Of a stretch of DNA of 61,800 bases, positions 2,275 to 9,322 are shown one piece after another. The translations under genes were made by a program, and so were the position numbers. The notes below the pieces were generated by a model. It saw only the letters and a list, made by a program, of their open reading frames with translations. It did no database searches and was not told the DNA's origin. The DNA is from Acidobacteriota bacterium. Its GTDB lineage: Bacteria; Actinomycetota; Acidimicrobiia; Spongiisociales; UBA5794. The stretch covers positions 1 to 61,800 of the forward strand of contig JADFQA010000018.1 in NCBI GenBank assembly GCA_022562055.1, read 5' to 3'. Within the stretch, counting starts at the first letter, position 1. Each line of letters starts with the position of its first letter.

Positions 2275-2337
2275 TAGCGGGGGCGGGATTTGAACCCGCG
2301 ACCTTCGGGTTATGAGCCCGATTCTGGGGGTGCCGCT
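2275..2337 (-). pseudogene. tRNA-Met(CAT)-like gene, degenerate D arm
   Basis: On the minus strand the anticodon arm has loop CTCATAA with a GC stem. The variable loop, T arm (GCGGG-TTCAAAT-CCCGC) and 3' acceptor strand CCCCGCT are all intact. The 5' side matches only at its first five bases (AGCGG). The next two acceptor bases cannot pair and too few bases remain for a normal D arm, giving 63 nt in total. The 3' half plus its terminator is what integrases usually target and preserve, so this may be a scar of integration. A working atypical tRNA is unlikely but not excluded. Confidence 0.6.
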
Positions 2338-4025: not shown

Positions 4026-4095
4026 TCCGTGATCGAATCGGACATCCGGTGGACTGTTAATCCATTGGTTATAGGTTCGAGTCCTACCCGCGGAG
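4026..4095 (+). pseudogene. tRNA-Asn(GTT)-like gene with shortened D arm
   Basis: The plus strand carries a good anticodon arm (GTGGA-CTGTTAA-TCCAT), a normal variable loop, a T arm TAGG-TTCGAGT-CCTA and a 3' acceptor strand CCGCGGA followed by GCC. The 5' acceptor TCCGTGA pairs with six of these seven bases, counting one G-U pair. The D region is about four bases short and cannot form a standard D arm. It is therefore either an eroding tRNA-Asn or a very divergent one. A small hairpin follows it at 4126-4144. Confidence 0.5.
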
Positions 4096-4973: not shown

Positions 4974-5558
4974 TTACATAGCGCTCATCACCATCGCCAC
5001 AATGCTTCGAAGCACCTCGTGGTCTGTGCCAGCCTTGACCATCGTCCGCAGACCACTCATGCTCGTCATCAGGTAGTTGGCGAGAAGGGTCGCCTCCTTG
5101 TCGCTGCGGACACTGCCGTCCTCTTGTCCGCGCCGTGTCGCCGCTAGGAAGATCGCTCGGTACTTGTCGAAGCCTTGCGACACCTGTGCCGCCACCTGTT
5201 CGTCCCGCTGTGCGAACTCGTTGGCGGTGTTGACGACGAGGCAGCCCTTGGGATCGGTCCCCTCGACGACTTCCTCGATCGCCCAGAGCAGCGTGTCCTC
5301 GATGAACTCCCGCCCGGTCGCGGCGCCGTCGAGACTCGTGGCCAGATGGAGAGCGGTCGCTTCCTCGTACCGCTCGAGACAGCTGAGGAACAGCTGCCGT
5401 TTACTACCGAAGGCTTGGTAGAAGCTGCTGCGCGACAGACCCATCTCTCCCACGAGATCCTGCAGCGACGTCGCCCCATAGCCCTTGCGCCAGAACAGCT
5501 CCATGGCGGTGTCGAGCACCTGCTCCGAGCTGTATTCGAGCGGCCGGCCTATGGACAT
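4974..5558 (-). CDS. TetR/AcrR-family transcriptional repressor
   Basis: At 194 residues it has the usual TetR length. The N-terminal helix-turn-helix spans about residues 10-55, with the typical GYGATSLQDLV...GLSRSSFYQAFGSK pattern. The rest is an all-helical ligand-binding domain with one Cys in the GCLVV motif common in the TetR_C subfamily that senses electrophiles. It starts an operon with the CMD/AhpD-like gene 27 bp downstream. An ACCGATCGGT palindrome overlaps its promoter, so autoregulation is likely. The pairing of an electrophile-type repressor with a CxxC redox protein fits a thiol-stress response; that role is inferred. Confidence 0.88.
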   Translation of the reverse strand: MSIGRPLEYSSEQVLDTAMELFWRKGYGATSLQDLVGEMGLSRSSFYQAFGSKRQLFLSCLERYEEATALHLATSLDGAATGREFIEDTLLWAIEEVVEGTDPKGCLVVNTANEFAQRDEQVAAQVSQGFDKYRAIFLAATRRGQEDGSVRSDKEATLLANYLMTSMSGLRTMVKAGTDHEVLRSIVAMVMSAM

Positions 5559-5565
5559 GCATTGG

Positions 5566-5583
5566 ACTATAGCACCGATCGGT
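5566..5583 (-). promoter_or_regulatory. TetR operator palindrome and -10 element
   Basis: The perfect palindrome ACCGATCGGT (5574-5583) lies directly upstream of a minus-strand -10 TATAGT (5571-5566). The predicted transcript start falls at about 5559, right at the ATG at 5558, so the TetR mRNA may be leaderless. Related ACCGA-type sites are known for NemR/AcuR-like TetR proteins. Binding here is inferred from position. Confidence 0.5.
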
Positions 5584-6051
5584 ACAGAAGTGATAGGGCA
5601 ACGGTGTCGGCGAACCGAGCCTCACCCTAAGTACACGGCGACAACCCTGGAGAGCGGTGCTTCGAGCGGCGTGAAGCCGAGAAACCACGTTCGTCTGACA
5701 CAGGTGTGAGCGCGAGGCCGTCGCGCGAACTCAGACGTCACGAAACCGCGGAGAAATGCAGGATTCCGAAGGGTTCCATTCGCCGTGGAGCCAAGACTTG
5801 AAGCTGCGACCATCGGCCTATGGCCCAACTGCTATTCGGCTCTGTGACCTGTGGCCCGTGGACACCTCGTGGGTTCAGCGAATCGCAACCATCCGAGCTA
5901 ACCCAAGTTGGTGGTATTTTGCGTGTCGGCCCAAAATCGTCGGTGCAGCTATCGCGAACATCCAATCCGGCAATCCCCCATCGTTGCCTATCTGTCGAAG
6001 GTCTCCGTCCAACGATCGAATGCCTCGTTGGCTCCGACGGAATCAATCGGG
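5584..6051. other. Non-coding stretch with a faint tRNA-like relic
   Basis: No gene is supported. On the minus strand around 5787-5826 a CATAGG anticodon-like loop, a GGTCGCAG stretch and TTCAAGT recall the 3' half of a tRNA-Met, but the stems are largely lost. The stretch ends where the istB remnant begins. Confidence 0.35.
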
Positions 6052-6255
6052 TCGAAACGCTACGAACAATCATGCCTCATCGTGTCATCAAACAAGACGT
6101 GCTCAGCATGGGCCGAGATCTTCGGTGACGCCGTCGCGGTCGAAGCCATGGTCGACCGCGTTGTTCACCACTCCCACATCCTCACCCTCAAAGGCGATTC
6201 CTACCGCCTCAAGAACAAACACAAAGAAATGGGAGCCACCAATGAAACCCGCTAA
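6052..6255 (+). pseudogene. istB: IS21-family istB remnant (C-terminal 67 codons)
   Basis: From about 6052 the frame reads SKRYEQSCLIVSSNK, then WAEIFGD, MVDRVVHH and LKGDSYRLK, ending at TAA 6253-6255. This is the conserved C-terminus of IstB, the AAA+ helper ATPase of IS21 transposons. It includes sensor-1 (SSNK) and the basic DRLVHH/KGDSYRLK tail. The Walker motifs and the whole N-terminal part are gone, as is istA, so it cannot transpose. It shows that an IS21 element once sat here, probably together with the TGTCAAG repeats at 2.1 kb. Confidence 0.8.
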
Positions 6256-6359
6256 ACCGCGCAGTATTCAACCGTCTTAGACACAGGATTCGTGGCATCG
6301 GTAGTGCGGCCTTCCGGAGTCGGCTTTAGGAACGTCTTGGCGAATCTGTGCCGCCCGTT

Positions 6360-6388
6360 TTGACATGCGGTGCACGGTCACTTACGCT
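6360..6388 (+). promoter_or_regulatory. Sigma-70-type promoter for the leader peptide
   Basis: A consensus -35 TTGACA (6360-6365) is followed by a 17-base spacer and a -10 TACGCT (6383-6388). The start of transcription would be about 6394-6396, at the ATG of the leader ORF, so the leader is probably leaderless. Confidence 0.65.
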
Positions 6389-6395
6389 CGCCACG

Positions 6396-6485
6396 ATGTT
6401 GTTGCTGATGACGTGTATGTGTTTGTGTATGTGCTCTCGGGTGGACCACCCGAGCGCTGGCATCGCACGCCGTCAGCGCTCCTAA
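6396..6485 (+). CDS. Cys/Met-rich leader peptide (29 aa), cysteine attenuator
   Basis: The ORF starts at ATG 6396, at the predicted 5' end of the transcript, and ends at TAA 6483-6485. Codons 7-13 read Cys-Met-Cys-Leu-Cys-Met-Cys, that is four Cys and two Met in seven codons, followed by SRVDHPS and a basic tail. It precedes a sulfurtransferase operon by 87 bases. Mycobacteria use leaderless polycysteine ORFs in this position: ribosomes slow at Cys codons when cysteine is scarce and so expose the downstream gene. The same role is inferred here. The alternation with Met suggests it could sense methionine too. ATG 6408 is a possible internal start. Confidence 0.75.
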   Translation: MLLLMTCMCLCMCSRVDHPSAGIARRQRS

Positions 6486-6563
6486 CGACGCCACCGCCCT
6501 GAGAGATATTCCCTGGCTTTCGAGCCGCGTCGTACGTTCGTATCAACCACGCACCAACAGGAG
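6436..6563 (+). promoter_or_regulatory. Attenuator: two mutually exclusive hairpins and an anti-SD
   Basis: Hairpin 1 pairs CTCGGGT (6436-6442) with ACCCGAG (6448-6454). Hairpin 2 pairs GAGCGCTG (6452-6459) with CAGCGCTC (6474-6481). They share 6452-6454, so only one can form. CTCCT at 6479-6483, in the 3' arm of hairpin 2 and the leader's end, is complementary to the rhodanese Shine-Dalgarno AGGAG (6559-6563). A ribosome paused at the Cys codons (6414-6434) would cover or abut the 5' arm of hairpin 1, favour hairpin 2 and leave the ribosome binding site free. The logic is inferred; the pairings are seen. Confidence 0.6.
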
Positions 6564-6572
6564 TAACCCAAC

Positions 6573-7412
6573 ATGACCTATGCCAATCCTGACGCGCTGG
6601 TCTCCACAGACTGGCTCGTCGATCACCTCGACGACCCGGATGTGCGAATCATCGACGTCGACGAGGACATCACCCTTTATGAAGAGAATCACATTCCGGG
6701 AGCGATCGCGTGGAGCTGGTCCGAGGACCTCCATCACGCCGTGCGGCGAGACTACATAGACCAGGAGGGCTTCAGCTCACTGTTGTCCTCGGCCGCTGTC
6801 GGCTCGGCAACAACAGTGGTCCTGTACGGAGGAAACAACAACTGGTTCGCTGCCTACGCCTACTGGCTGCTCAAGTATCGAGGCTTTGACAATGTCAAGC
6901 TGCTCGATGGTGGCCGCACGAAGTGGGAGTTGCAGAGCCTGCCATCAACAAGCGAAGTACCGTCTCTTGAACCCACCGGATTCGAGATTTCCGGTGCCGA
7001 GCGTCCTGAGCTGCGGATCTTCCGCGACGAGGTTCTCGAGTCTGTCGGCTCGGCAACGCTCATCGACGTGCGCTCGCCCGAGGAGTTCAGCGGCGAGAAG
7101 CTGGCACCAGATCACCTGCCACAGGAACAGCCATATGTCGGCGGTCACATACCGGGGGCGAGGAACATTCCGTGGAGCAAGGCCGCGAACGAGGACGGGA
7201 CATTCAAGTCTGCCGAAGAGCTTCAGGAACTGTACGGAGACAGCGCCACAGCTCAGGGAGAGACGACTGTGTACTGCCGGATCGGTGAACGCTCATCACA
7301 CACCTGGTTCGTCCTCAACGAGCTTCTCGGCCACCCGAACGTCAAGAACTATGACGGATCATGGACCGAATACGGGTCACTGGTCGACGTGCCAGTGGAA
7401 GTCGGCCCCTGA
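6573..7412 (+). CDS. sseA: Thiosulfate sulfurtransferase, tandem rhodanese
   Basis: The protein transfers sulfane sulfur from thiosulfate or a similar donor to a thiol acceptor. Two rhodanese domains are visible. The N-terminal one (about residues 8-125) lacks a catalytic Cys and has YGGNNNWFA in its place. The C-terminal one (about 145-275) has the active loop VYCRIGERSS with Cys235. This CRIGERSS loop is typical of actinobacterial SseA/CysA-type enzymes. At 279 residues it is full length. The ATG is preceded by AGGAG at 9 bases. It is the first gene of an operon under the Cys leader peptide, with the beta-carbonic-anhydrase gene 30 bp downstream, so sulfur supply probably controls it. Confidence 0.92.
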   Translation: MTYANPDALVSTDWLVDHLDDPDVRIIDVDEDITLYEENHIPGAIAWSWSEDLHHAVRRDYIDQEGFSSLLSSAAVGSATTVVLYGGNNNWFAAYAYWLLKYRGFDNVKLLDGGRTKWELQSLPSTSEVPSLEPTGFEISGAERPELRIFRDEVLESVGSATLIDVRSPEEFSGEKLAPDHLPQEQPYVGGHIPGARNIPWSKAANEDGTFKSAEELQELYGDSATAQGETTVYCRIGERSSHTWFVLNELLGHPNVKNYDGSWTEYGSLVDVPVEVGP

Positions 7413-7442
7413 TCACCCCGCCACTACGAAAGGAGCATTCCA

Positions 7443-7937
7443 ATGAGCGCCACAGATGAACTAGTACGAAACAACGAAACCTATACATCGAGCTTCGACC
7501 AAGGAGACCTGCCCATGCCGCCAGGAAGGCACTTGGCAGTCGTCGCCTGCATGGATGCACGCCTCGACGTATACGCGATCCTGGGCCTCGATCTCGGCGA
7601 AGCCCACGTGATCCGAAACGCTGGCGGCATCATCAGCGAAGACGCCATCCGGTCGCTGGTGATCTCACAACGGTTGTTGGGCACCGAGGAGATCATCCTC
7701 ATCCACCACACCGACTGTGGGATGCTCACCTTCCGCGACGATGATGTGAAGGACGCGATTGCTGACGAGCTCGGCGTCAGGCCGTCGTTCGCTCTCGAAG
7801 CGTTCCCTGACCCACGACAGGATGTCCGCCAATCGATAGCCCGTCTCCAAGCGAACCCCTTCATCACACACAAGGACCAGATCCGAGGGTTCGTGTTCGA
7901 AGTTGAAACAGGGCGCCTGAACGAGGTGACCGAATAG
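7443..7937 (+). CDS. Beta-carbonic anhydrase family protein (class D type)
   Basis: At 164 residues it matches the small mycobacterial beta-CA Rv1284 in length and motif spacing. The zinc ligands are Cys36 (CMDAR, with the Asp38/Arg40 dyad), His89 and Cys92 (HHTDC). It should hydrate CO2 to bicarbonate. Close relatives of this class include the carbonyl sulfide hydrolase of Thiobacillus and CS2 hydrolases of archaea. It is co-transcribed with a sulfurtransferase under a Cys-responsive leader, so a sulfur-linked role (COS or CS2 hydrolysis, or bicarbonate for sulfur assimilation) deserves weight. A good AAAGGAG-like site precedes the ATG. Confidence 0.9.
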   Translation: MSATDELVRNNETYTSSFDQGDLPMPPGRHLAVVACMDARLDVYAILGLDLGEAHVIRNAGGIISEDAIRSLVISQRLLGTEEIILIHHTDCGMLTFRDDDVKDAIADELGVRPSFALEAFPDPRQDVRQSIARLQANPFITHKDQIRGFVFEVETGRLNEVTE

Positions 7938-7966
7938 GCGTTGACCTTGTATCTCGGTCTCTATCC

Positions 7967-8014
7967 GATCCCGCCGATGTCCCTCCTCCTAGGGTGAGAC
8001 GCATCGGCGGGATC
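7967..8014 (+). terminator. Long stem-loop after the sulfur operon
   Basis: GATCCCGCCGATG (7967-7979) pairs perfectly with CATCGGCGGGATC (8002-8014). The loop can itself fold (CCCT with AGGG). It lies 30 bp after the carbonic anhydrase stop and has no U-tract, which is common in high-GC genomes. Confidence 0.7.
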
Positions 8015-8141
8015 AGCTAGTCATGCGGCGGCGACCGGGGCTCCATCCATGTCGGAATCGTGCTACCGGTGACCGCGCATTGCGCGGTTGTTGGGTTCCG
8101 ACTCGCAGTTTGAAATGATCCTGCTCCGTACGGGAAAGGTC

Positions 8142-8881
8142 TCAGTAGTTGGTCCATCCTCCATCGACGGTGAGCACCTGTCCGGAGACGAAGTCGCTCG
8201 CTGGGCTGGACAAGTATTGGACGGCGGTGGCAATGTCATGAGGCTGACCTCGATACTTGAGCGCCTGGACCTGCTTCATCCAAGTGAGGGTCGCCTCCGG
8301 ATTCGAACCGTCTTCACTCTCTCGTTCCACCTGGATAGCGCCCGGAATCACACAATTCCCACGGATTCCATTCTCGCCCTCGCAGCGGGATAGCGAGCGA
8401 GTGAACGCGATGAGACCACCCTTTGTGGTGACATAGTGAAGCGCTCGCGAGTCCCCTGTCGTCGCCATCACGGAGCCGATCGTGACGATCTTGCCATAGC
8501 CGTTTTCCTCATTCCTTCGATCGCCGCGAGTGAAGCGACAAAGGCTCCCCGAAGGTTCACATCCATCATCCGATCCCAGTCATCGACGGTGATCTCGTCC
8601 CAAGGTAGGTGCCCAACCTGGGCTGCATTCAGGATCAACACATCGACCGTACCGAATGCAGCGCTCACTCGATTCGTTGCAGCCTCCATGTCAGGGCCAC
8701 TGGCAGCATCTGCTATCACCGCCATCACGCGGTCGGACGCGAGCTCCCCAATGAGGGCTGCGGACAGGTGCTCATTGCGCTCCGTGCCGAGATGGGTGAT
8801 TGCCACCTTGGCGCCAGCTTCGGTGAAACGGCGGACTATCGCTGCGCCGATGCCGCGCGCAGCGCCCGTGACCAGGGCCAC
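8142..8881 (-). pseudogene. Short-chain dehydrogenase/reductase, broken by one frameshift
   Basis: The two halves together make a full SDR of about 247 residues. The first frame (8881 to about 8505) holds VTGAARGIGAA (cofactor loop) and LNAAQ. The second (from about 8505 to 8142) holds the catalytic HYVTTKGG Tyr/Lys motif and the C-terminal VDGGWTNY. The frame changes at the TTTT run 8503-8506 (plus strand), where one more T would restore GMRKNGYGKIVTIGS. Start choice is uncertain: GTG 8881 cuts slightly into the N-terminus and the frame is open further upstream. It lies just after an Fe-S oxidoreductase remnant. It is either a recent pseudogene or a homopolymer sequencing error. Confidence 0.8.
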
Positions 8882-8962
8882 ACGTCCCGCGAGTGAAAAC
8901 GGGTCAAATGTCTCTGCATCAGATATCAGATTTACACCTTCGGTCGGGGACGATTCGGATCA

Positions 8963-9322
8963 TCATGCGGATGTCGCTTGGGTCATGAGTTCGGCAAGGT
9001 GTATGACTTCAATCCGGGAGCGCTCTCGCTTCAGTTGTGAAGCGAGGTACCTGTAGCAGTCCGGGTTGACCACGAGGATGCCGATGTCCCGCTGCGCTAG
9101 TTCTGCGAGTTTGGGTTCTAGGACCAGCCGGGCGTCCGTAGGGCGCAACAAGGCGTACGAGCCGGCCGCACCACAGCAATCCGCCGCAGTATGGAGAAGT
9201 CGACGCCAATCTTCCTCGGTGGGTTCACCCTTGCTTCGCCTTGGAGCCGAGATCATCGCAGCCAACACTCTTCGGGTCATCTCATCTTCGGGTTCGCCTT
9301 GACTTTGCGCCAGGCGTCTCAT
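8963..9322 (-). pseudogene. C-terminal remnant of a CCG-domain Fe-S oxidoreductase (GlcF/LutA-like)
   Basis: The segment contains DCCGAAGSY followed by a LVVNPDCYRYL motif and an HLAEL tail. This is the layout of the last CCG domain in GlcF, LutA and HdrB-like subunits that bind Fe-S or haem cofactors. Only about 120 residues remain of roughly 400. The N-terminal ferredoxin domain and the first CCG domain are absent, and no gene continues upstream. The sequence before DCCG is unlike the family. I read it as a decayed gene; its original partner, for example a glycolate or lactate dehydrogenase, is not present. Confidence 0.6.

Follow-up and report, generated by a model that had tools for sequence, protein, structure and literature searches.

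A cysteine-codon leader upstream of a rhodanese gene belongs to a conserved, multi-copy family of probable RNA switches in one order of Acidimicrobiia

The leader upstream of the rhodanese gene in the stretch of DNA analysed here (61,800 nt, hereafter the window) belongs to a conserved family of probable RNA switches, which occurs in multiple copies and was found in a single order of Acidimicrobiia. We regard the window leader as probably (about 0.78) a ribosome-mediated attenuator, which would read the supply of cysteinyl-tRNA and control access to the Shine-Dalgarno (SD) sequence of the rhodanese gene. About 87 copies of the leader were found in about 59 of the 138 genomes of the order, and the genes downstream of them are mostly sulfur-amino-acid genes. 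Because the sensing codon of these copies always encodes Cys or Met, stalled ribosomes are probably used to tune sulfur genes.

The promoter, the 29-codon Cys/Met open reading frame (ORF), the two hairpins sharing three bases and the CTCCT able to pair with the rhodanese SD, which the initial annotation had described, were all present in the window (Table 1). Cys occupies codons 7, 9, 11 and 13 of the ORF (four of seven codons), Met occupies codons 8 and 12, and 16 further codons follow the Cys codons. The GAG at 6452-6454 is common to hairpins A and B, and hairpin B is exclusive of both hairpin A and the anti-SD:SD pairing. Hairpin C and the element 3 in its loop are additions to the initial annotation, which had overlooked them. 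The -10 element fits the actinobacterial TANNNT but matches TATAAT at only three of six positions, which explains why no promoter was reported at the leader by a strict sigma-70 scan. No intrinsic terminator was found in a scan of 5000-9000. An Rfam search gave no gathering-score match at the leader, and its only matches in the whole window were two low-scoring tRNAs barely above the gathering score (2275-2337, minus strand; 4026-4095, plus strand). An NCBIfam search with three leader peptides, which are hard to match at such short lengths, gave no match up to E 10.

Table 1. Positions of the leader elements and of the genes that follow them in the window
Feature	Position	Strand	Remark
-35 element TTGACA	6360-6365	+	read in sequence
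-10 element TACGCT (TANNNT)	6383-6388	+	17-nt spacer from -35; 7 nt before ATG
Putative leaderless 29-codon sensing ORF, MLLLMTCMCLCMCSRVDHPSAGIARRQRS*	6396-6485	+	homologous ORFs in relatives
Sensor codon UGU (Cys11), the -3 codon	6426-6428	+	only UGU or AUG across the leader family
Element 1, GCTCTCGGGTGG	6433-6444	+	near-invariant in A3/A4; immediately follows the Cys codons
Hairpin A (pairing of elements 1 and 2)	6436-6443/6447-6454	+	8 bp; 3-nt loop
Hairpin B (GAGCGCTG with CAGCGCTC)	6452-6459/6474-6481	+	8 bp
Anti-SD CTCCT at the leader stop codon	6479-6483	+	complementary to AGGAG 6559-6563
Hairpin C, post-stop (ACGACGC with GCGTCGT)	6485-6491/6527-6533	+	covariation among relatives
Element 3, CCGCCCTGAGAG, in the loop of hairpin C	6494-6505	+	complementary to element 1, one bulged T in the window copy
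SD AGGAG of the rhodanese gene	6559-6563	+	read in sequence
CysA2-type thiosulfate sulfurtransferase, two rhodanese domains	6573-7412	+	
Beta-carbonic-anhydrase-family protein, short (164 aa)	7443-7937	+	30-nt gap after the rhodanese gene

The best PDB matches of the rhodanese were the solved thiosulfate sulfurtransferases 3hwi and 3aax. The beta-carbonic-anhydrase-family gene is probably the second gene of the rhodanese operon; in several relatives a sulfite-reductase-like gene follows the rhodanese gene in its place. Further downstream, a short-chain dehydrogenase gene (8142-8881, minus strand) seems split into the overlapping frames 8468-8881 and 8142-8471, a pattern suggestive of either a frameshift or a sequencing error.

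Homologues of the window rhodanese with 68-76% identity were found within the same order. Eleven leaders located before these homologues could be aligned, and all of them have the Cys codons, elements 1, 2 and 3, and hairpin C, as well as CTCCT at the stop codon, although the leader peptides differ (e.g., MTMCMCLCGSSRVADPSADSMRRQRS; VRRNCNCMGSRVTDPSAASAKRS; SCCCGCCVRSRVGHPGAGIRPHS). Conservation of the Cys run and the pairings in relatives had been set beforehand as the test that could refute the leader, and both were found before the same rhodanese. No such leader was seen in the upstream regions examined of rhodanese paralogues that are further removed (about 50% identity, L004 and L121 among them) or of the rhodaneses L119, L129 and L130 (59-64% identity). 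In two relatives, L003 and L113, the leader no longer looks leaderless, and the promoter region upstream of it holds a palindrome resembling TTAACACTATCCCGATAGTGTTAA (about 1290-1325 in L003 and about 1304-1330 in L113), a possible repressor operator. Sister copies often look leadered as well, for example L115, L116 and the OsmC copy C45 of the window's genome.

A covariance model (R1) was built from the 11 rhodanese leaders, which carry only UGU at the -3 codon. R1 revealed four strong copies in the window's genome. Besides the window copy (C18), located before the rhodanese gene, these are C15 (MTRFMCMCCCTTSRV...) before a DUF4395 gene and a thioredoxin-like gene, the latter named by eye from its sequence and without a Pfam match; C12 (MKTLMCMCLMCSSRV...) before the genes of O-succinylhomoserine sulfhydrylase (MetZ; TIGR01325 above cut-off) and a sulfite-reductase-like NIR_SIR protein; and C45 (...MCICMLSSRV...) before the genes of OsmC and O-acetylhomoserine sulfhydrylase (MetY; TIGR01326 above cut-off). 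Over 395 genomes of the class R1 gave 84 matches, all within the same order except one match that was rejected, and among 326 genomes of the phylum no copy was found outside the order. A second model matched 63 of the 138 genomes of the order, or about 59 after removal of weak matches without element 1 or sulfur genes. The weak matches G150, G137, G066, G018, G010, G115:C97 and G041:C16 were dropped because each lacked either a proper element 1 or a sulfur gene.

The codon at the sensor position was counted by alignment on the UCU-CGG codons of element 1, from which it lies three codons upstream. Among 80 copies this -3 codon was UGU in 64 and AUG in 16, and nothing else; seven further copies found later all had UGU, giving 71 UGU and 16 AUG in 87 copies. 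The AUG codons do not result from model bias, because R1 was trained on UGU only. A codon-blind search, with a pattern asking only for elements 1 and 3, gave 48 sense sites, all with UGU (38) or AUG (10) at this position (48/48), and in the antisense control, 34 matches read from the other strand of these sites, none had a Cys or Met codon. The choice between the two Cys codons was equally strict: all 57 distinct Cys copies use UGU at the -3 codon and never UGC, while the other leader Cys positions have 50 UGU and 43 UGC, and the downstream genes 16 UGU and 90 UGC. One tRNA-Cys is expected to read both UGU and UGC, and the exclusive use of UGU is possibly due to slower wobble reading. Element 1 starts with GC at the -1 codon, and for this reason nearly all copies have NGC at that position; Met is common at the -5 and -6 codons.

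These codon rules bear on whether the peptide itself, rather than the RNA, could be the active product. Binding of metal by the recurring Cys and Met residues is conceivable, and a peptide acting in trans by metal or thiol binding would make the RNA pattern secondary. However, the length and most residues of the peptide vary, the -1 residue follows the RNA through its NGC codons, Met replaces Cys at the sensor position, and a peptide function would not require UGU without a single UGC in 57 of 57 distinct copies, all of which make a peptide acting in trans very improbable.

The initial annotation had suggested that the window leader could read both sulfur amino acids through its alternating Cys and Met codons. 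The Met residues at codons 8 and 12, the frequent Met at -5 and -6 in the family and the AUG sensor of sister copies are in line with such dual reading. We nevertheless consider it doubtful for the window copy, since the -3 codon of rhodanese copies is always Cys, several of these copies have no nearby Met (STRRHVCPC, SSCCPPCTG and FRCPDTCTR), and a stall at other codons would leave part or all of element 1 exposed. The evidence points to Cys sensing by the window copy, whose Met codons lie at unconserved positions; what holds of the suggestion applies to the family as a whole, in which the sensor codon is Met in 16 sister copies.

In the window's genome, the sensor codon is Cys before the rhodanese gene and the DUF4395/thioredoxin-like genes, and Met before the MetZ and OsmC-MetY genes. 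Across the family, a MetY or MetZ gene lies downstream of every Met copy for which enough sequence follows (13 of 13), versus 8 of 64 Cys copies, some of which have less than 3 kb of sequence downstream (Fisher 1e-9). The OsmC tree showed three changes of sensor state and yielded one to three independent pairs; because of these small numbers, a link of the Met sensor with MetY/MetZ independent of ancestry was not significant after ancestry correction. Ancestry thus explains part of the match between the Met sensor and methionine genes. Met sensing in the sister copies is likely, and the matching of the sensor codon to methionine genes is suggestive. Because the same module precedes several sulfur operons in the window's genome, shortage of Cys or Met should switch them together, in a way similar to the set of cysteine-responsive uORFs in mycobacteria. 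A wider reading, towards which we lean somewhat, is that one RNA attenuator module of one Acidimicrobiia order controls a set of sulfur operons as a single regulon run only by stalled ribosomes, with an exchangeable UGU/AUG sensor that corresponds to whether or not the operon makes methionine; within the literature searched, no methionine-codon attenuator of Actinomycetota would precede it.

The pairings were examined by covariation. Hairpins A and C together have 96% standard pairs over 83 matches (78 distinct rows), with both partners changed in eight pairs and 55 cells, a level reached by none of 500 shuffles and far above the slid controls; the alignment was fitted to the tested structure, which favours it, and related copies were counted more than once. 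Compensatory changes in hairpin C include GACGCC/GGCGTC, GACACC/GGTGTC and GTCCG/CGGAC. Element 1 covaries with both of its partners, as in G070:C1 (CTCCCGGG/CCGGG/CCCGGGAG) and in L112, where a change of T to C in element 1 is accompanied by A to G twice in its partners. Hairpin B and the pairing of element 1 with element 3 (1:3) are conserved but covary little in their own right. RNAalifold favoured the 1:3 pairing together with hairpin B.

The same data separate the leader from a product of chance. Compared with random sequence of the same dinucleotide make-up as the window, one ORF of 15-60 codons with at least 4 Cys in 7 codons was seen in the window where 0.4 was expected, so that the Cys run alone, within the window, is not beyond chance. 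This would suit a chance Cys-rich ORF beside chance hairpins, to which we give next to no weight, because conservation in about 59 genomes, the covariation and the -3 codon rule refute it; the latter two exclude chance for the leader family. The promoter-to-start arrangement was likewise found in 14 of 75 distinct copies versus none of about 1,500 shuffled upstream regions. The leader was thus judged real because it is conserved in relatives, and not by the Cys run in the window.

For the window copy, we propose the following mechanism. Judging from the sequence, the transcript would begin at or next to ATG 6396, and a ribosome would load on the leaderless ORF. With ample charged tRNA-Cys, this ribosome would reach the stop codon at 6483 and depart, hairpin A (1:2) would form behind it, and the free CTCCT would pair with the rhodanese SD, leading to low sulfurtransferase translation. 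When Cys-tRNA is scarce, the ribosome would pause when codon 11 (UGU 6426-6428) or codon 13 occupies its A site. Held with its A site at the -3 codon, a ribosome covers about 13 nt beyond this codon and so most of element 1, and from this footprint size the paused ribosome should mask that element. Hairpin A could then not form, and hairpin B (6452-6481) would form, take up CTCCT and release the SD. Element 3, in the loop of hairpin C, would serve as a second, competing partner of element 1. The pairings of the model are supported by comparison and computation; the leaderless start, the stalling, the direction of control and the translational output are inferred.

The predicted folds of the window leader agree with these two states. 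Without a ribosome, the probabilities were 1.00 for hairpin A, 1.00 for hairpin C and 0.86 for the anti-SD:SD pairing; with a ribosome at Cys11 or Cys13, they were 1.00 for hairpin B and 0.00 for anti-SD:SD. The SD was also partly free with a ribosome at the stop codon, which implies that repression would need the ribosome to leave. In equilibrium folds of other rhodanese copies, a stall lowered the anti-SD:SD pairing in some, changed it little in L111 and L117, and acted in the reverse direction in L115, L123 and L002; as the relatives disagree, equilibrium SD accessibility was counted as support for the window copy only.

A swap test gave further information on the output. In rhodanese copies, the end of the ORF pairs with its own SD at -12.3 kcal/mol versus -11.0 kcal/mol with the SDs of other copies (permutation p 0.003), and in OsmC copies no matched anti-SD:SD was found by the same test. 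SD sequestration is therefore not an output common to the family, and the anti-SD as its universal output was ruled out; the OsmC copies must use another one. In some copies before OsmC and flavoprotein genes, such as L178 and L180, the leader lies 150-180 nt before the SD and has CCGCCCGTAG at the stop codon in place of CTCCT, and the output of copies of this type must differ. The OsmC copies keep elements 1, 2 and 3 and hairpin C without a matched anti-SD, the region has no intrinsic terminator, and Rho has been proposed to act at cys leaders of mycobacteria (Seliverstov et al. 2005, PMC1262725). These points would suit a rival reading with the same sensor, in which a ribosome that is paused or missing decides Rho-dependent (transcriptional) termination in the leader instead of SD access. 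Such termination appears unlikely for the rhodanese copies, whose anti-SD:SD match is specific to each copy, and we favour SD access for the window leader.

Cysteine control by leader ORFs is known from mycobacteria. A leaderless Cys uORF lies upstream of cysA2/Msmeg_5788 (Shell et al. 2015, PMC4633059), and Canestrari et al. 2020 (doi 10.1111/mmi.14498) are reported in later papers to have described cysteine-responsive attenuation by such mycobacterial leaderless polycysteine uORFs. The initial annotation had placed the window leader before a different operon from these, which was mistaken, since the mycobacterial polycysteine uORFs precede the homologous cysA2 (PMC4633059). In the named actinobacterial homologues that we examined, ...KRRAVDLCRVA..C leaders precede the same rhodanese, and in the mycobacterium read in detail a DUF4395 gene lies between the leader and the rhodanese gene. 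Our literature search found nothing on leaders of Acidimicrobiia. An unrelated, structured form of ribosome-read cysteine control of sulfur genes probably exists in a distantly related actinobacterial class. Comparison of its approximately 87 natural copies, whose sensor codon has only two states, can test how attenuator specificity depends on one codon position and why the Cys sensor is UGU and never UGC.

The window leader resembles the mycobacterial polycysteine uORFs in being a putative leaderless Cys-coding uORF with a run of Cys codons and a homologous cysA2-type target, and in standing before more than one sulfur locus of a genome (the window's genome has four copies); in mycobacteria, too, a stalled ribosome was proposed to unmask a downstream ribosome-binding site. 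However, the mycobacterial peptide (...LTKRRAVDLCRVAGCCCCCC..) has its Cys at the C-terminus, whereas in the window family the Cys codons come first and are followed by 7-18 codons encoding the switching hairpins, which are conserved and covary, and the decision falls at one codon position, where Met can take the place of Cys. Since the window-family peptide is unrelated and has no resemblance to KRRAVDLCRVA...CCC, the leader would work like the mycobacterial ones without implying descent from them. The leaders of Mycobacterium, Propionibacterium and Bifidobacterium reported by Seliverstov et al. 2005 (PMC1262725) also have Cys codons in an ORF upstream of sulfur genes, but their Cys run lies near the stop codon, no conserved hairpins were found in the mycobacterial cys leaders, and no RNA regulation of methionine operons was found in Actinobacteria. 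As in the trp, his, leu and ilv attenuators, the starvation-sensing codons lie just upstream of mutually exclusive hairpins. Unlike in those systems, there is no intrinsic terminator, the output of the rhodanese copies is most likely SD access, and one RNA module is reused before unlike operons, its novel property being an exchangeable sulfur-amino-acid sensor codon.
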